Positions 4,197-42,537 of a stretch of 51,647 bases of DNA are shown here, piece by piece; position 1 is the first letter of the stretch, and each line of letters opens with the position of its first letter. The stretch lies in IMG/VR virus record IMGVR_UViG_3300025978_000007, positions 1 to 51,647 of that record; one strand, written 5' to 3'. The notes under the pieces are model-generated. The model worked only from the letters and a program-made list of their open reading frames with translations. It did no database searches and was not told the origin of the DNA. The position numbers were made by a program, and so were the translations under genes. The stretch comes from a virus.

Positions 4197-4751
4197 ATGG
4201 GAAAAGAAAGAAAAGTAGGTAGCTTATTTATAGATAAAAAAGGAACTTGTACTACTGTATTTAAAAGTGAATTAGGATGTTTAGGATGCTTTTATCTAAA
4301 AAATGGTGGATGCACAGCTGGAAAAGAAAAGGGCGAATGTTATTGGGTAAATAGAGAAGATATGGAGAGTATAATATTTGTAAGAGAAAAAATTATGGAA
4401 AATAAAATTATGAAAAAAGAATTAGTAAAAAGTTACGAGGATGCGCTTACCTTATTAGGTAAATCAGCGCCTAGCTATTTGAATGAGATGCCAGCTAACG
4501 AGCAGGCATATCATAAGCTTTGCATTATTTGTGAGGCTTTGAACGTTGGACATGAAAAAAAAGATCGTATATATTATCCTTGGTGGTGGAAAGAAGATTT
4601 AAAAGCGGGTGTCGCGGCTCGTTATTCGTATATCGTCTTTGCGCGTGCGCCTGCGTTCTCGGGGTTTCGGCTTTGCTGTTTCGATCGAGTAACAGCACTC
4701 TATTTTGGAAGCAAACCGTTCGTAAAACTATGGCAAGATTACCTATTATGA
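4197..4751 (+). CDS. Cys-rich module fused to hypervariable lectin-type (DGR-like target) domain
   Basis: The 184-residue product has two parts. Residues 1-65 form a Cys-rich module (ELGCLGCFYLKNGGCTAGKEKGEC). Residues 72-184 match gene 41272 throughout (SYEDALTLL, YLNEMP, YHKLCIICEALNVGH, IYYPWW). Residues 137-160 (4605-4676) are the variable segment GVAARYSYIVFARAPAFSGF, followed by RLC. Its DNA is near-identical to that of gene 41272 except at NNY codons. Internal ATGs at 4395 and 4410 could start the second module alone. The fold is expected to be C-type-lectin-like, as in DGR targets; ligand and role are unknown. The stop overlaps the next ATG. Confidence 0.75.
   Translation: MGKERKVGSLFIDKKGTCTTVFKSELGCLGCFYLKNGGCTAGKEKGECYWVNREDMESIIFVREKIMENKIMKKELVKSYEDALTLLGKSAPSYLNEMPANEQAYHKLCIICEALNVGHEKKDRIYYPWWWKEDLKAGVAARYSYIVFARAPAFSGFRLCCFDRVTALYFGSKPFVKLWQDYLL
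4605..4676 (+). repeat. Variable repeat VR1 (24 codons, DGR-like)
   Basis: This is a GC-rich island in AT-rich surroundings. Aligned codon by codon with 41548-41619 it differs at 8 of 24 codons. Thirteen of the 14 base differences fall in codon positions 1-2 of NNY codons, as expected if the template has AAY there. The 3' end GGGTTTCGGCTTTGCT is identical in all three copies, resembling an initiation-of-mutagenic-homing site. Confidence 0.72.
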
Positions 4752-8724: not shown

Positions 8725-11700
8725 TTAATAACCTAAATAACTCCAAGCCCAATGCGTTCCATTCCAACGCACGATACATCCATCTCCATTTCCTAAAACT
8801 TTATATATTACTCCATTATCACTAGAATTTGCTCTTATGTGGTCTGTTCCATTCGTGGATACAGTGACATCTCCTCCATACATCTTTTTAAAGATAAAAG
8901 TCAATCCAACATCAGATCCGTTAGTACTAGGAGTTGGCAAAGTAAGTGTAATAGCTGAATCGGCATAACTATCTACAAAACAATCAGTCTTTAGTACCTG
9001 ATAGTTTGCTGTTACCTTTTTTGAATTGGGTATAATACCCAATACTTTAAGTCTATTGAAATAACCACCATAAGACTTACTTGCATTCACTGTGTCGGAA
9101 TCAGATGTTTGGTCTAATCCGAATATCGCTGCTGATATTCCAGATGAATCAGAGTTCCTCTTTTGCAAAAGCATAGCCAAAGTGAAATTAGATGTAAATC
9201 CCGTTGTTCCGGATAATCCCTTTATATTACTACCATTAGAGAACAATCCCTCACACCCTACTTCGCTGTAACTTCCTCCACCCAAGTCACCTGAATCCAA
9301 TGAATCCCAATAAGTAATATCTGTAGGAAGTAAACCTGATGTAGGAGTTTCTGTTTCTAACCAATCATACGTAAATATATAAGTATATCCGGTTGTTGAA
9401 TAATATACTCTATCATCTTTATAATAAATAGTTGATGAAGAGTAATTCCCCTTCCATTGTTTATCCCGTATCACCATTGCCGGCTTCTGTTGGCCAGATG
9501 ATTGCATCGCTGATATATCTTTTCCTAATCCAATTATTGCATTACTTATAGATGCTGCGTCTGCTTTATTCCTAAATATACCAAGCGACGAATCAAGAAT
9601 AGAAAGAAGTAAATTATATGGGTTGGAGCTAGTAGAAAGTTTTGAAACAATCAAATTATTGATATATGCTTCCTGTGCAAGTAATAATCCCGTTGCAATG
9701 CTAGAGAATGATGCACCAAAACTGTTCCAATGCGTGGTATCGCTATTAGGAGTTGTTGCAGAAGAGAATGAACCTCCTACGTCATATCTAGCAATATAGT
9801 AAACATTACTGTAAAGAACTACTGATACAACTGTAGCGCTACCTGTATAAGTATCCGATGCAGACCATGTTCCATAGAATGACATCGCTGGTCCCGTATT
9901 TCCTGTTGACCCTGTTGCACCTGTTGCTCCCGTATCTCCTTGCGCTCCACTAAATCTTTGAGGAGTGCTCCATGTATCTACCAATGCATCTGCCGAAGTC
10001 TTTTCCGCAGTCGTTATCCACATATATTGGTAAAGATTCATTGACGGAAGATCTGTTGTCCATCCACTAGGCACATCTTCGGTATTATCTAATGCAGGGG
10101 CTATGGTATCAGATCCGTTTACAGCATAACGATGTTCGTAATAATTTCCCGTTGCTCCTGTTGCTCCTGTGCTTCCTGTTGCTCCTGTGCTTCCTGTTGC
10201 TCCTGTGCTTCCTGTTGCTCCTGTATCTCCTTGCGCAGAAACAACCGTCCAATTCGTTCCTTCCATAGGAGTAACGTTTTGTGCCGCCGTAGAGTTAATG
10301 AATCTCCATGTAGACCCTCCATAAGTTACGGTATCTCCATTATAATAGAGAGTATTTGTAGCATATGCGCCTCTGAAAACGCTTACGGCACTTTCAATAC
10401 CTGAAGGAGAAACAGTTAACCCACCTTTTATTTTCAGTAAGTCTTCATCAGTGTCCCAATCCAAATATTTCTCGGTATTTCCTACATGTACTTTATTGTT
10501 ATCTAAATCTAAGTAGGTATTTCCATCCTGACTTTGTATTTTACCTGTAACAATAGTATTTCCATTGATAAAAGTAAATCCATTTGAGGTATAGAACTGT
10601 CTAATAGAATTAGTCAATGCCGTTAATGTTCCTAACAAGAAATAATAGTAGTTCGAATCTGAATTTACCTTATATACTGTTTCGGTAAACAATATGATAG
10701 CATCTGAACTGCCTGTTGTTGCATTGCATCTGATATAAGCATAGTATGCAGTATCAGCATCCGAAGCAGTGAAACTGCCACTAACAATGTTCCAAGTTCT
10801 ATCGGTGCTCTGTTGAGTACTATCGACAATCGTTCCCGCACTCCACGATACAACATTAGGCGTATTTGAATAAGTTGTAACACTTACCCCTGTAAGCGTA
10901 TATTGTTGAGTTTCCGTCCCAAATAAAGCCATAGCCGTTTTTACAAATAATGGGGCTATTCCATCAGTGAAATAACTGCTTTCAGGGTCAAATGCCATAG
11001 ATATAGCTTCGGACGCACTCTTATAAGTACGCACCTTAGCCATTTGAGTATTCAGATTGCTATATTGGACATAAGTGGAATTTTGATTTGTTGAGTTTAT
11101 TATTGATTGAATCTTACTAGGAACATAAGGAGTATTATCAAGCGTAATCTCATATTTATATGCTTCGGTAATATATCTCTTTAAATCGGTTACTCTATAC
11201 ATTAAATCAATCCCGAAATCAGTATCAATCACTTGAATAACATCACCAATACTTATATTTATCAGATTATTTGTTGCCCAAACAGTATCGACATCGCCTT
11301 TGTATGTAACCTGATCCACGCAATACTGATTCAAATATACTTGCGCCTTCGCTTTCAAGTAATTCTCATTCTTACTAATGTAAGATTGTGGCATATAGAA
11401 ATCAACGATATTGAATTGATCACCTGCAGCAAAAGTATATCCCGCTGTTGGTAAGGTCGAATCGTTTCCATCTTGTATGGATTCAATCGTCATTTGTTTG
11501 GTAGTCTTATCAAAATCAGAAATTGGAAACTCGTATCCTGCCAAGTTACCGGTAATGAAATGAACTTTAGGCAATGTCCCGTCTTGCATGACTAGATCCG
11601 CATCACGAGGATTAAAAGATAAGTTTTTATCAATCAACTTATATTCCCCAACTGCTGTCGTTACAGTGCCTTCGGTAATCTGCCAATAAGAACCTTCAGC

Positions 11701-12924
11701 GGGCGTTATATTAACTCCGCTAACTCCTATGAATGTCCATGAATAGTTATTATAAACAACCATGCTACCACTTACATAAGTGACGGTTGAATCATAATCA
11801 TCCGTTGCATGAAGCATAGCTGGGTAAATATCGTCCCAAGTTTGAATCGTTTCAAGCGGATGTTTCAAATCTATATTATCTGCATCCAAATAATATTTGT
11901 CAGGAAGCATCAACCTCTTTGAACCTCCTCGATAGGTTGAACGTATATTCTTCGTTCCCCCTAAAGCGATAAGACGGGTAACCTTTTTTGATTGAGTTAC
12001 TTCGTCACGTTCGATATTTTGAAAACCATTCCCGCTGCCATACTTCATTACTAAAGAAGTAGTGTTAGAACGTTTACCTATATTTATTGTGTAATTGTCG
12101 TGTGATGTTTGACCTATCCAAAACTCTGTATCGTATAAGTCAGCCGTAGTGCCTAAAGCTGAGAGAACTGATACATTGGAGAATGCTTGTTCTTTTGGTT
12201 GGTCTGTAATAGTATATCCAACTGTCCAATTCTGATCAGGGCGACCACGATTCATATTGTCGCAGAATAACTGTGCCCATCTGCCTGGAGTAAGTACGGA
12301 AGAGAAGTCCCATTTAGGAGCCGTTGCTATTAAAGTCCAATAATTGCCTTCTTCGGGATGTGTATTGGTTGTATCAACCGAACCTATATGTTTCCAAATG
12401 CAATCATCATAGACTACTTCATCTCCATAAGTATAAGTAGTTGAAGCTACGTATTGAGCTACCTCATGCGTTACATTTGATTTAAGTTGCCAATAACTTC
12501 CTTCTTCAGGTGAGATTCCATTAATTGAAGTTGTTGAAATACACTCCCAATAAAGAGTATGATAAGAAACAACCATACCCTTAGAATAAGTCGTTGCACT
12601 ATTATATGCGGGAGTGATAGAAGAGGTCGTATTGTCAAATAGTTGCAAATTTACATCATCCATATCAGCCCTGGGGCTTTCAAATTTCAATGTATATTCG
12701 TAATGAACAGAAGAATACTTTTTTACGGGTGCAGGTTTCTTTAGAATCGTATAATACATTCCATAAAGTTCCACATAATCACCTATATCGAAAGGGATAT
12801 ATTCTCCTAAGACAAATTTTATCTGTGCATATTCCTCATCAGATATTTTGTTTTCTATATAACTATCCGCACTCTCATGAATGGCTGTGCGGATAGTATT
12901 GTCTGCTTTATATACCGTTATCAT
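8725..12924 (-). CDS. Large modular tail tip/receptor-binding protein with CBM-like and collagen-like repeats
   Basis: The N-terminal region of this 1,399-residue protein resembles distal-tail/tail-endopeptidase-type baseplate proteins. At least five short modules of the form YxxGDxVxYxGxxWxxI...PxxGxxW occur at about residues 111-142, 151-195, 375-411, 851-893 and 1161-1205; they resemble CBM5/12 carbohydrate-binding units. Collagen-like Gly-x-y repeats (GATGST) span about 898-925, with a second patch near 991-1008. The C-terminus is beta-rich, like a tail-spike knob. It probably contacts host surface glycans. It overlaps the upstream gene by one base (TAATG). Confidence 0.8.
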   Translation of the reverse strand: MITVYKADNTIRTAIHESADSYIENKISDEEYAQIKFVLGEYIPFDIGDYVELYGMYYTILKKPAPVKKYSSVHYEYTLKFESPRADMDDVNLQLFDNTTSSITPAYNSATTYSKGMVVSYHTLYWECISTTSINGISPEEGSYWQLKSNVTHEVAQYVASTTYTYGDEVVYDDCIWKHIGSVDTTNTHPEEGNYWTLIATAPKWDFSSVLTPGRWAQLFCDNMNRGRPDQNWTVGYTITDQPKEQAFSNVSVLSALGTTADLYDTEFWIGQTSHDNYTINIGKRSNTTSLVMKYGSGNGFQNIERDEVTQSKKVTRLIALGGTKNIRSTYRGGSKRLMLPDKYYLDADNIDLKHPLETIQTWDDIYPAMLHATDDYDSTVTYVSGSMVVYNNYSWTFIGVSGVNITPAEGSYWQITEGTVTTAVGEYKLIDKNLSFNPRDADLVMQDGTLPKVHFITGNLAGYEFPISDFDKTTKQMTIESIQDGNDSTLPTAGYTFAAGDQFNIVDFYMPQSYISKNENYLKAKAQVYLNQYCVDQVTYKGDVDTVWATNNLINISIGDVIQVIDTDFGIDLMYRVTDLKRYITEAYKYEITLDNTPYVPSKIQSIINSTNQNSTYVQYSNLNTQMAKVRTYKSASEAISMAFDPESSYFTDGIAPLFVKTAMALFGTETQQYTLTGVSVTTYSNTPNVVSWSAGTIVDSTQQSTDRTWNIVSGSFTASDADTAYYAYIRCNATTGSSDAIILFTETVYKVNSDSNYYYFLLGTLTALTNSIRQFYTSNGFTFINGNTIVTGKIQSQDGNTYLDLDNNKVHVGNTEKYLDWDTDEDLLKIKGGLTVSPSGIESAVSVFRGAYATNTLYYNGDTVTYGGSTWRFINSTAAQNVTPMEGTNWTVVSAQGDTGATGSTGATGSTGATGSTGATGATGNYYEHRYAVNGSDTIAPALDNTEDVPSGWTTDLPSMNLYQYMWITTAEKTSADALVDTWSTPQRFSGAQGDTGATGATGSTGNTGPAMSFYGTWSASDTYTGSATVVSVVLYSNVYYIARYDVGGSFSSATTPNSDTTHWNSFGASFSSIATGLLLAQEAYINNLIVSKLSTSSNPYNLLLSILDSSLGIFRNKADAASISNAIIGLGKDISAMQSSGQQKPAMVIRDKQWKGNYSSSTIYYKDDRVYYSTTGYTYIFTYDWLETETPTSGLLPTDITYWDSLDSGDLGGGSYSEVGCEGLFSNGSNIKGLSGTTGFTSNFTLAMLLQKRNSDSSGISAAIFGLDQTSDSDTVNASKSYGGYFNRLKVLGIIPNSKKVTANYQVLKTDCFVDSYADSAITLTLPTPSTNGSDVGLTFIFKKMYGGDVTVSTNGTDHIRANSSDNGVIYKVLGNGDGCIVRWNGTHWAWSYLGY
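10150..10233 (-). repeat. 18-bp tandem repeat encoding GATGST
   Basis: Near-identical 18-base units, read on the plus strand as TTGCTCCTGTGCTTCCTG, repeat about four times within the large tail gene and encode a collagen-like Gly-x-y stalk. High DNA identity between units implies recent slippage, so stalk length may vary between relatives. Confidence 0.85.
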
Positions 12925-13244
12925 TATGCTAATATTTCATCAGCCCATACTTTAGAATTAGCTACTAAAGTTTCATGCGCTGCTTTCTCGGCTGTATCAG
13001 AATCACGCGAGAATGCTAATTTAATCTCATCAGCATAAGAATATCTTTCAGCGATTATTGCCTTGATTATCTCATCTTTAGTTAACTCGGTGATGATATA
13101 TTGAGTATTATACTCATACGTATATTCTGTACGTGTACTTCCATCATCCAATGTTTTTGTCACTTCCTGTATGTTCCATCTTATTTGGAACTTACCATCT
13201 AAAAATTCAGACATAGATGGCTTTTCAATGCTATTTCCTATCAT
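12924..13244 (-). CDS. Small tail-region protein (106 aa)
   Basis: The first half is strand-rich (FLDGKFQIRWNIQEVTKTL...YEYNTQYIITEL) and the second half helical (KDEIIKAIIAERYSYADEIKLAF; AAHETLVANSKVWADEIL). Small proteins of this size between fibre genes often act as fibre chaperones or adaptors, but nothing here proves that. It lies 18 bp after the fibre gene and overlaps the next gene by one base. Confidence 0.55.
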   Translation of the reverse strand: MIGNSIEKPSMSEFLDGKFQIRWNIQEVTKTLDDGSTRTEYTYEYNTQYIITELTKDEIIKAIIAERYSYADEIKLAFSRDSDTAEKAAHETLVANSKVWADEILA

Positions 13245-13261
13245 AATTTTTTAATTTTTAT

Positions 13262-15271
13262 TCATTTTCTTTCAAAGCAAAGCCGAAACCCGAAACTCAA
13301 ATTCGTATTCGCAAGGCCGTAAGCCGAATAACGAGCCGCAATACCCGCCGTCGCCGAAAAATACAAGACGCCACCAGCGAGCAACAGGCGACAATAATCT
13401 TTAGTAGCATCAGCCAAATAAGACCAATTATAATCAGTTACATAAGTGGAAGAGCTTCCTCCTAAAGTAATTGGATTACTATATACCCCAATAGAACTTA
13501 TATATGATTCATTAGAAGAAGATGCCATCGGAATTCCCAAATCAGTATAAGTAGATAATATTGTTGCTTGATCTGATGAAAATAAGTCAGGATTCGGTGT
13601 AGCGAACATATGCTTTGATCCTGCTACTCTTCCATCAGGAGAGCAACCATCTATCATTTTCCATACATGCCCAAACATATTTTCTATCCAAAAAAATCTA
13701 TTTGCTATATATTTATTTGTATCATTCCATGTCGCTCCTACCGATGTAACAGCAATTGTTCCTGTTGCTCCTGTTGTCGCTGCATTATAAGTATGCGTAT
13801 TAACTGTTCCGATAGTAGTTGCTATAAAATCTACATAAGCATTACCTGCTGTATAAGATACCGTATATCCTGTAAAAGTTAATGTAGCTATATAAGCTGC
13901 TAACAGCACTGATGTCGAATAGGATGTAGTTACCGGGATAGTATTTACATGAGTACCTAACGTGATTACTATACTATCATTAGCAGAAACTCCAGCTGTA
14001 AAAGTTAATCTTACATGCTCCGCAACTCCTGAATAGATATCAGAATCATTCGTTGCATCAGCCGCTACGCTACCGTTTATTCCTGTAAGTACTTTTGTTC
14101 GTCCTGTAGTTCTTCTATAACTATCTGCATAGGTTGATAATTCTGTGTATCCAGGCAAACTTACCTGTGAATTTAACTCAGCGAAATATAAATACCAAAG
14201 TGATTGAATTACATCTTGTGTGTAAAAATCATACGTATGCCATCCTGTTCCTCTTGCTACTGCCTGTGCTCTGGCGGTTGCTAAAGTTACTCCAGAATAA
14301 ATAGAACCACCAACAATGCTTTGCATAAGCGTTCCCGAAGTAGACGCTTCAAACATGCCTACGAATATTTCATCTCTGCCATTTCCCCAAGTAAATTTTT
14401 CATGTAAGGTAAACCCAGGTAATGGAATTAGCGAGAATTGAAGTTTAGTTAATCTATTTTGAGCGTCAACAGTACGTTTGATATAGAATTTCTTAATACC
14501 AACCATACATTGCCCACTTGCTCCTGTCAAATCAGATGCTTGACCATTAGTCTTATAATTGATATTAGTAGCCAATTCTTGCGTTACAACACCCGAATCA
14601 TTTAACGTAACAGGACGAATGCAAGTTGAAAATATTTCATTTTTAATATTATCATTGCCTATTCGAGTTAATGCCGTTGCCGGTGCATCGAAATTAAATT
14701 GGATGCCGCAAGATAAGACATTTTCTTGCACTTGTTGAGCAAAAGAAGTCCATGCACCCCATACCGAATTTATCTTTGTCCTTTCATAAACAATGATAGT
14801 AGTAGAATACGCAACTGCTCTTTGATAAGCACTGATATTACCTGTATTGCTATTTACATGATTAACAAACCATGAATATGCAGAATCAGGGACATTTGAA
14901 GCCGTTCCTAAAGCCGTATAATATCCCGAAGAAACAGGGGTATTCAAATCTGTTAAAACACTACCTCCATAGAAACCGCCTGATACCCTATTCCATGAAG
15001 AAGCAGATGCAGTAACTGAGGTTGCTTGCCATATCTCAAGAGAAGTCAAATTTAAAGCAATATCTCCTATCCTATGTGGAGAAATAGAAGAGGTATATGG
15101 ATTAGTTAAAGATACAGCCGAAAAAGTTTGTACGGCTATATCTCCTTGAACTTTCGTAGATATTTGGCTAGTCAATATTTTCACAGGGGTTGTTCCTTGT
15201 GTTGCCGGTATCATCTCTGCTCCATTAAGAGTTGAAGCTTGAGGAAATGCACTTATTTTTATATCACTCAT
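13262..15271 (-). CDS. Tail fibre with C-terminal C-type-lectin-like variable domain (DGR-like target)
   Basis: This 669-residue protein begins MSDIKISAFPQASTLNGAEM, a phage tail-fibre-type N-terminus. A long beta-rich shaft follows, and the C-terminal domain resembles the formylglycine-generating/C-type-lectin fold of DGR targets. The end has RLLLAGGVLYFSATAG, then IAARYSAYGLANTNLSFGF and RLCFERK. Codons 642-665 (13277-13348) are the variable repeat, sharing GCGGGT, GCGGCTCGT and GGGTTTCGGCTTTGCT with VR1 and VR2. It is likely the main receptor-binding fibre. Confidence 0.82.
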   Translation of the reverse strand: MSDIKISAFPQASTLNGAEMIPATQGTTPVKILTSQISTKVQGDIAVQTFSAVSLTNPYTSSISPHRIGDIALNLTSLEIWQATSVTASASSWNRVSGGFYGGSVLTDLNTPVSSGYYTALGTASNVPDSAYSWFVNHVNSNTGNISAYQRAVAYSTTIIVYERTKINSVWGAWTSFAQQVQENVLSCGIQFNFDAPATALTRIGNDNIKNEIFSTCIRPVTLNDSGVVTQELATNINYKTNGQASDLTGASGQCMVGIKKFYIKRTVDAQNRLTKLQFSLIPLPGFTLHEKFTWGNGRDEIFVGMFEASTSGTLMQSIVGGSIYSGVTLATARAQAVARGTGWHTYDFYTQDVIQSLWYLYFAELNSQVSLPGYTELSTYADSYRRTTGRTKVLTGINGSVAADATNDSDIYSGVAEHVRLTFTAGVSANDSIVITLGTHVNTIPVTTSYSTSVLLAAYIATLTFTGYTVSYTAGNAYVDFIATTIGTVNTHTYNAATTGATGTIAVTSVGATWNDTNKYIANRFFWIENMFGHVWKMIDGCSPDGRVAGSKHMFATPNPDLFSSDQATILSTYTDLGIPMASSSNESYISSIGVYSNPITLGGSSSTYVTDYNWSYLADATKDYCRLLLAGGVLYFSATAGIAARYSAYGLANTNLSFGFRLCFERK
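13277..13348 (-). repeat. Variable repeat VR3 (24 codons, DGR-like)
   Basis: On the minus strand this segment aligns codon by codon with 4605-4676 and 41548-41619. Variation again affects the first two bases of NNY codons (7, 9, 10, 11, 14, 16, 18). A few extra differences (codons 3, 12, 15, 17, 19) show it is more diverged. It ends with the same GGGTTTCGGCTTTGCT and lies at the extreme 3' end of the fibre gene, the usual place for a DGR variable repeat. Confidence 0.72.
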
Positions 15272-38749: not shown

Positions 38750-39418
38750 ATGAAAGAAAAAATTGAAATTAAATCAGTATCAGGAAGTGTGTTATTTACT
38801 TACGAATGTGAGAATAATACGATTTGCAAAACGGTAGAAAAAGCAATTTCTAGTTATGAGAACTTGCGTGGTGCGAACTTGCGTAGTGCGAACTTGCGTG
38901 GTGCGGACTTGAGTGGTGCGAACTTGAGTGGTGCGGACTTGAGTGGTGCGGACTTGAGTGGTGCGGAATTGAGTGGTGCGGACTTGCGTAGTGCGAACTT
39001 GCGTGGTGCGGACTTGAGTGGTGCGGACTTGAGTGGTGCGGAATTGAGTGGTGCGGACTTGAGTTATGCGGACTTTAATGAAGGAACATCATTTCTTTTA
39101 TCTCAATGTCCAGAAGGAAGTTTCATTGGATGGAAAAAATGTGGTAACTATATCGTTAAGTTATTAATTACAGAGAATTCAAAAAGATCATCTTCCACCT
39201 CACTTAAATGTAGATGCTCCAAAGCTAAAACTTTGGAAATTCAGGAAATTGATGGTTCTAAATCAGAAATAACCGAAATATGTTCGAATAGAGATAGCGA
39301 ATTTATTTATAAAGTAGGTGAACTTTCAGAAGTACCTGATTTTGATGAAGATAGATGGAACGAATGTTCTTCTGGAATACACTTCTTTATATCTAGGGAA
39401 ATGGCAGTTAAATATTAA
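38750..39418 (+). CDS. Pentapeptide-repeat protein
   Basis: This 222-residue protein begins with a short beta region ([16 protein letters not shown]), then about 14 pentapeptide units of the type A(D/N)LSG/RGAN. A C-terminal domain resembling DUF5758 follows ([20 protein letters not shown]...[13 protein letters not shown]). Pentapeptide repeats form a right-handed quadrilateral helix that can mimic DNA and inhibit gyrase in some proteins; that role is only possible here. Repeat units are almost identical in DNA. Confidence 0.85.
38862..39075 (+). repeat. 15-bp tandem repeats encoding pentapeptides
   Basis: About 14 nearly identical 15-base units (such as GGTGCGGACTTGAGT) are arranged head to tail. 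Their high identity indicates recent expansion and a likelihood of copy-number variation between relatives. Confidence 0.88.
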
Positions 39419-41271: not shown

Positions 41272-41694
41272 ATGAGAAAGAAAGTTCCTGAAGGAAGTGA
41301 ATATGTAGATTTCTCGATTGAAGGGGATAGAGTAATCACGGAATGGATTCCAAAAGAAAGTGAGAGAGTCACTAACTACGAAGATGCACTAATGGTTCTA
41401 CAAAAGAAGGAACCGACTTATTTAAAAGATATGCCTAAACATGTGCAAGCATATTATAAGCTTTGCACGATTTGTGAAGCATTGAATCTTGGACATACGA
41501 AAGAAGAGAGAGTATACTATTCTTGGTGGTATACGAAAGAACTTCATGCGGGTGTCGCGGCTCGTGCTTCGGTTGGCGGCTTGGCGTTTGCGAGTGCGAG
41601 CTCGGGGTTTCGGCTTTGCTCTTTCGACAAAGCAACAGCTCTCTATTTAGGGAGCGAAAGATTTATCAAACTATGGAAAGAATATTTATTATAA
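41272..41694 (+). CDS. Hypervariable lectin-type (DGR-like target) protein, copy 2
   Basis: This 140-residue paralogue of gene 4197 lacks the Cys-rich module. Shared blocks are NYEDALMVLQ, YLKDMP, YYKLCTICEALNLGH and VYYSWW. The variable segment, residues 93-116 (41548-41619), reads GVAARASVGGLAFASASSGF and is followed by RLC; the conserved tail is TALYLGSERFIKLWKEYLL. It lies in the recombination operon, between the ATPase and DUF6948-like genes, so it is unlikely to be a virion fibre. The ligand is unknown. Confidence 0.76.
   Translation: MRKKVPEGSEYVDFSIEGDRVITEWIPKESERVTNYEDALMVLQKKEPTYLKDMPKHVQAYYKLCTICEALNLGHTKEERVYYSWWYTKELHAGVAARASVGGLAFASASSGFRLCSFDKATALYLGSERFIKLWKEYLL
41548..41619 (+). 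repeat. Variable repeat VR2 (24 codons, DGR-like)
   Basis: This copy aligns without gaps to VR1 (4605-4676): 16 of 24 codons are identical and 13 of 14 base differences are in positions 1-2 of NNY codons. The fixed 3' end GGGTTTCGGCTTTGCT is shared with both other copies. Flanking DNA is far less similar, showing the segment itself has been homogenised or copied. Confidence 0.74.
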
Positions 41695-42005: not shown

Positions 42006-42537
42006 TTGAAGAATTTGTAAAAATAAGATCTGGATATGGCGATGGCTATGGCTATGGCGATGGCTCTGGCTATGGCTATGGCGATGGCTCTGGTATAATA
42101 TCTGTAAACAACAAAAAAGTTTATAAGATAGATGGATTGCAAACGATAATCACCTCTGTGAGAGATAATGTAGCGAAAGGTTATATCTTACAGAGTGATC
42201 TGACATTAACTCCTTGCTTTATAGTTAAGGAAGATGATAAATTTGCTCACGGTTCAACTTTGCATGAGGCATTTGCATCTTTGCAGGAAAAGTTGTACAA
42301 TGATTCTTCCGAAGAAGAACGCATTAGCAAGTTCAAAGAACATTTTATCGACTTCGACAAGGCATATCCTGTGACAGAATTGTTCATCATGTTCTTACAG
42401 GCAGCTGCAAGGCAGGACGGGAATCATTCGCAAAGGATCATGAAATCGACATTAAGAACGATGCTATGACGATACATGAGTTTATTAATATCACTAAAGA
42501 TTCCTTTGGTGGAGATATAATTAAAAAACTATTATGA
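41993..42537 (+). pseudogene. Gly-Tyr-Asp repeat protein, probably frameshifted
   Basis: The 158-residue frame from ATG 41993 to 42469 has a Gly/Tyr/Asp repeat (GYGDGYGYGDGSGYGYGDGS), then VYKIDGLQTIITSVRDNVAK and SDLTLTPCFIVKED, a known Bacteroides phage family. Its last residues (LQAAARQDGNHSQRIMKS) do not look like the family. From about 42382 a second frame to TGA 42537 restores family-like sequence (LTGSCKAGRESFAKDHEID, ...EFINITKDSFGGDIIKKLL). That stop overlaps the next ATG (42534), as an intact gene would. A small deletion or recoding event near 42380-42392 is likely. Confidence 0.65.
42033..42095 (+). repeat. Gly-Tyr/Gly-Asp coding repeat
   Basis: Degenerate 6-base units (GGCTAT, GGCGAT, GGCTCT) repeat through this stretch and encode a Gly/Tyr/Asp/Ser low-complexity segment. 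Slippage is likely between relatives. Confidence 0.75.

Follow-up and report, generated by a model that had tools for sequence, protein, structure and literature searches.

How does a phage genome come to hold three repeats of the kind that a DGR rewrites when neither the reverse transcriptase (RT) nor the template repeat (TR) is found in it? A DGR (diversity-generating retroelement) is a virus-encoded mutation machine that normally scrambles a short cassette on purpose. The window, by which we mean the whole stretch of DNA analysed, is a phage genome of 51,647 bases (35% GC, 32.5% A) that carries the tailed-phage genes terminase, portal, capsid and tape measure. Direct repeats of 99 bp at both of its ends suggest that the genome is complete, and we infer that the host belongs to the Bacteroidota. 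An earlier note on this DNA described the three variable repeats (VRs); that RT and template are absent from the genome, which is the unusual part of the case, went unnoticed there.

Three variable repeats in two gene families

VR1 (4605 to 4676, plus strand), VR2 (41548 to 41619, plus strand) and VR3 (13277 to 13348, minus strand) align without gaps along 72 nt, or 24 codons. VR1 and VR2 differ at 14 of the 72 bases, with 6, 7 and 1 differences at codon positions 1, 2 and 3. Our alignment confirmed the earlier account of these differences: 13 of them lie at positions 1 and 2 of codons 7, 9, 10, 11, 14, 16 and 18, whose third base is a fixed pyrimidine, and the remaining one is TTT/TTG at position 3 of codon 12. 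The flanks of this paralogue pair show the ordinary coding pattern (18, 10 and 29 differences by codon position), and third-position identity is 23/24 inside the VR vs 38/67 outside it (p = 2.8e-4). A is absent from the 58 bases that VR1 and VR2 have in common and from the 49 bases invariant in all three repeats; for the latter, the chance of zero A is 2.6e-8 by a naive binomial with A taken as 30%. The differences of VR3 extend beyond the NNY codons to codons 3, 12, 15, 17 and 19, third positions included.

All three repeats lie near the C-terminus of their target and, as had been claimed, end in the same conserved segment. This segment, GGGTTTCGGCTTTGCT, is a VR-type 3’ end resembling an initiation-of-mutagenic-homing site; it occupies 4662 to 4677 (plus strand) in VR1, and identical copies close VR2 and VR3. 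VR3 sits at the extreme C-terminus of its protein, 4 codons before the stop, while VR1 and VR2 finish about 24 codons before theirs. The VRs of related DGRs finish at the same place with a CGGCTTTGC-type sequence, and several related TRs have altered ends.

The targets had been presented as three unlinked genes. The repeat is indeed present in all three, but the VR1 and VR2 genes are paralogues, so that there are two gene families. The VR1 gene (4197 to 4751, plus strand) encodes a small protein of the phrog_11581 family (E 5e-13), and the VR2 gene (41272 to 41694, plus strand) encodes a member of the same family with 54% identity to the VR1 protein; both proteins are small and probably non-structural. 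For the VR2 protein, AlphaFold gave a model of insufficient quality for a fold search, and a single-protein search of viral contigs for VR2 relatives returned zero.

The VR3 gene (13262 to 15271, minus strand) encodes a tail protein of phrog_5302 (E 2.9e-41). Its residues 189-666 match the primary targets that immediately precede TR and RT in loci from IMG/VR, with E values down to 2e-23, and we consider the protein a receptor-binding candidate. The domain gave zero matches by sequence against PDB and Pfam. When its predicted structure, a model with a mean pLDDT of 48, was examined for the C-type-lectin (FGE-like) fold of DGR targets, the best solved match (E 8e-4) was the DGR variable protein TaqVP, and the same low-confidence model matched phage tail fibres in BFVD.

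Other repetitive sequences were noticed in the window. Collagen-like Gly-X-Y repeats (10144 to 10236) lie in a 1399-aa tail protein beside the VR3 module, and a 15-base tandem array (38807 to 39106) encodes a pentapeptide-repeat protein with DUF5758. A Gly-Tyr-Gly-Asp repeat (42031 to 42090) is found close to the N-terminus of a protein encoded two genes downstream of VR2; it is longer (L017, 10641 to 11441) in G001 (IMGVR_UViG_3300001279_000031), a diverged phage that shares the tail module with the window.

The AAY register and the target families in RT-bearing genomes

We collected RT loci from IMG/VR using two Bacteroidaceae DGR RTs as queries and obtained 75 TR/VR pairs in 68 loci. In these pairs 1274 of the 1323 mismatches fall at TR adenines, a proportion to be read with the pair finder's demand for at least 80% of mismatches at TR adenines. 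When the 43 distinct TRs of RT-bearing loci were aligned without gaps to the window repeat, codons 7, 9, 10, 14, 16 and 18 were AAY in 41 to 43 of the 43, and the same register was present in five further templates, from four Bacteroidaceae genomes and phage BT-TP2. The register is set by the invariant bases and not by the variable codons, and its 12 mutable sites are independent of the sites that vary in the window.

Between VR1 and VR2, all 12/12 of these sites differ vs 2/60 other sites (p = 6e-12), which in an independently set register makes the DGR reading secure. Apart from those two sites, their changes are confined to template-A positions, with the register taken from related templates. 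The corresponding counts are 10/12 and 10/60 for VR1 and VR3, and 8/12 and 10/60 for VR2 and VR3. The proposal that these are DGR-type repeats is borne out by the register of the 43 TRs, by the 12/12 vs 2/60 contrast and by the occurrence of both gene families as DGR targets in other genomes; on this comparison the window segments can securely be read as genuine DGR variable repeats, and they belong to a DGR lineage of Bacteroidota phages. The statement that VR3 varies at the same codons holds for 10 and 8 of the 12 AAY sites, but VR3 changes at its five additional codons as well. Likewise, the idea that one template fed all three genes fits VR1 and VR2 but not VR3, which differs from each of them at 10/60 non-AAY sites and was therefore last written from another or an older version of the template.

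The phrog_11581 family was present in 14 of 301 Bacteroidaceae genomes, and most of the 14 contain a DGR-type RT. In the family member of one genome (G302), the VR differs from the TR of that genome by 13 mismatches, all at A. Judged by such sequences, phrog_11581 is a family of remote DGR targets in RT-bearing genomes, and the window genes match its profile and carry the VR at the same place as the TR-served members. Small proteins like those of VR1 and VR2 are also encoded immediately upstream of a DGR RT in four loci (L146, 3400-3783; L148, 3371-3775; L149, 2103-2489; L151, 3406-3792), which suggests that phrog_11581-type proteins can serve as a primary target too.

Another Bacteroidaceae genome (G115, C6) contains two phrog_11581 paralogues, L159 and L166, whose VRs repeat this pattern, differing at 7/12 AAY-register sites vs 3/60 others (p = 5e-5). 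A DGR RT and a template were not found in G115. This pair hints that the situation in the window is not unique and is a lead only, as G115 may be incomplete.

An empty cassette slot and the search for a template

No RT was found in the window by Pfam RVT_1, by a six-frame profile of 63 DGR RTs with positive controls included, or by RT alignment. A template was not found in the window either; outside the three VRs, no stretch matches more than 26 of the 46 invariant bases. Two components of a complete DGR cassette, the RT gene and a template repeat in the same genome, are therefore missing.

The gene order in the relatives is target, TR, RT and a small gene, with 275-738 nt between the target end and the RT start, and the small gene abuts or overlaps the RT end. 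In the window, the VR3 target is followed after 17 nt (13245 to 13261, minus strand) by a 106-aa gene (12924 to 13244, minus strand; phrog_11557), a homologue of the gene that immediately follows the RT in DGR cassettes. It matches ORFs whose start lies at the 3’ end of the RT, with phmmer E values of 1e-6 to 2e-3, and homologues of both the target and the 106-aa gene are present at 13 RT loci. An assignment of this gene as a DUF4376 protein was unsupported by Pfam. The TR–RT cassette is thus missing from exactly its expected slot as well as from the rest of the window. G001 has an equivalent empty slot, with 87% identity across the junction of target and small gene, and in contig L004 this junction is identical to that of the window. 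The window and G001 are compatible either with loss of the cassette at this slot or with its never having been gained in this branch.

L004 was the only near-identical contig seen, with 1 difference across 13.9 kb; its VRs are identical to those of the window, and ongoing VR variation was not seen in this comparison. The tail module of G001 has 87% identity to that of the window, and elsewhere DNA-level sharing is limited to the VR2-gene region, a pattern that could stem either from strong exchange of modules or from a contig that is chimeric. A leucyl-tRNA ligase gene was also noticed in G001 (contigs L053 and L017). VR3 and its G001 orthologue differ at 3/12 mutable sites and 11/60 others, so that the tail target, with no excess at mutable sites, is without sign of recent rewriting. 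In G001, the VR2 gene has its orthologue at 10007 to 10342 of L017. Its VR-equivalent segment has 56% identity to the window vs 79% in the flanks, contains 15 A at 35% GC and has a one-codon deletion; from its composition, this A-rich segment looks like a decayed variable repeat. Against this decay, the intact VR1 and VR2 look maintained.

The earlier note had advised a search for an adenine-rich template, and this search, made in phages and bacterial genomes, found related DGRs but not the cognate template. No template matching VR1 and VR2 was found in IMG/VR, in one GTDB contig scan, or in samples of Bacteroidaceae, Bacteroidales and Bacteroidota genomes. A 75-base template guess run against 399 Bacteroidaceae, 393 Bacteroidales, 19 + 61 genus-level and 395 Bacteroidota genomes likewise retrieved related DGRs without a cognate, and among the templates from 80 RT loci, none of them cognate, the best shares 32 of the 46 invariant bases. 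The exact 5’ and 3’ repeat pattern, a type of scan that could overlook templates whose 3’ end is altered, recovered the same phage only in viral contigs and chance matches only in genome contigs; template-like patterns in viral contigs gave chance matches or none. Short matches in L041 and L042 were rejected, as they are located in ordinary genes.

Origin of the repeats and relation to known DGRs

In the working relatives, the RT copies the adenine-rich template sited between the target and the small downstream gene and randomises the template adenines, so that six fixed codons change from AAY to NNY; the resulting cDNA then replaces the VR. The gene flanks of VR1 and VR2 have diverged by 28%, and their near-identity at non-mutable bases despite this divergence strongly supports a rewriting of both from one common template after the gene duplication. 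The alternative that there is no DGR at all, and that a shared lectin-like motif was shaped by diversifying selection with gene conversion between the copies, is largely refuted, and we give it hardly any weight. Conversion would be possible between the paralogous VR1 and VR2 genes, but VR3 shows identity at the DNA level although the gene that contains it is unrelated, and selection predicts neither zero A in the 58 shared bases nor a match at 12/12 sites to the AAY register seen in independent template repeats. We also consider it improbable that the phage has its own RT and template and that these fell out when the contig broke or collapsed at a hypervariable region during assembly. The record is a metagenomic contig, and contig assembly can fail at variable loci, DGR repeats among them (PMC8008677); however, the 99-bp terminal repeats suggest completeness, and the junction of target and small gene is continuous, with its counterparts in G001 (87% identity) and L004 (identical).

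The source of the RT and template that wrote the repeats is more evenly balanced. We lean slightly toward VR1 and VR2 having last been rewritten by an RT and template supplied in trans, the supplier being a DGR of a host prophage or of a co-infecting phage. Should the common ancestor of the window and G001 already have had the empty slot, the rewriting of VR1 and VR2 would be younger than the RT loss, and hence in trans. The timing argument compares the same non-mutable sites, 2/60 between VR1 and VR2 vs 11/60 between VR3 and its G001 orthologue, and gives a P of about 0.0005-0.004 under equal rates; it assumes these rates and that the tail module is not a recent import, and the second assumption is doubtful given the modular sharing with G001. 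The wider proposal, that this phage lineage dropped its own mutator and template and keeps three targets that DGRs of resident prophages or of co-infecting phages rewrite in trans, we hold tentatively, at a little under an even chance. Supply in trans is opposed by the failure to find the cognate template in the collections searched, by the identical VRs of L004 with no variation seen, and by the tail module, which is common to G001 when most else is not and may be a recent import, allowing loss in cis. A real but smaller chance belongs to an ancestor that had TR and RT in cis, diversified the three targets and then lost the cassette by deletion or a tail-module swap, leaving the VRs frozen. 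The empty slot at the canonical position, the lack of mutable-site excess between VR3 and its G001 orthologue (3/12 vs 11/60), the identical VRs of L004 and the modular exchange with G001 all agree with such a frozen state, but VR1 and VR2 have barely changed at non-mutable sites (2/60) and retain intact 3’ ends, whereas their counterpart in G001 has decayed.

Each of the closest known systems resembles the window in part. Quimbyvirus (Quimbyviridae) is a Bacteroidota phage with a two-target DGR (PMC8008677). Likened by description and not by sequence, it also has one VR on the tail side, in a gene adjacent to the tail fibre genes, and another in a distal, presumably non-structural gene, which in Quimbyvirus is on the opposite strand (PMC8008677); unlike the window, which has two copies of the distal-type target, it encodes RT and template. 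Four gut prophages also carry a distal second VR away from the tail target, but genomes in that study were scored DGR-positive only with an RT (PMC12629997), so the window phage would be missed. The template of Bacteroides phage BT-TP2 (PQ571279.1) has AAY at codons 7, 9, 10, 14, 16 and 18 in the same register, although its repeat is only distantly similar to that of the window; BT-TP2 and the hankyphage (PMC6199706), the latter likened by description, differ from the window in having a complete target-TR-RT cassette in cis. The Bacuni phages of Bacteroides uniformis have two targets, one remote from the RT, but possess RT and template (PMC8143477). Thiohalocapsa PB-PSB1 has VRs without full local machinery and a distant template matching all non-A sites, from which diversification in trans was inferred; its trans DGRs act within one bacterial genome and not from another element on a phage (PMC10907252). 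Multi-target and remote-target DGRs are therefore known, and what is new is an RT-less phage that keeps three targets.

Surveys tend to require an RT for a DGR-positive call (e.g. PMC12629997), which renders RT-less phages with targets invisible. The AAY register provides a test applicable to any read set, with 12 named sites to be scored against 60 controls. The present case suggests that targeted hypermutation can outlive its machine or be uncoupled from it. If rewriting in trans is true, a second element sharing the cell with a phage could diversify that phage's tail and accessory proteins, co-resident phages would become linked in their evolution, and hypermutation would be shared between mobile elements.
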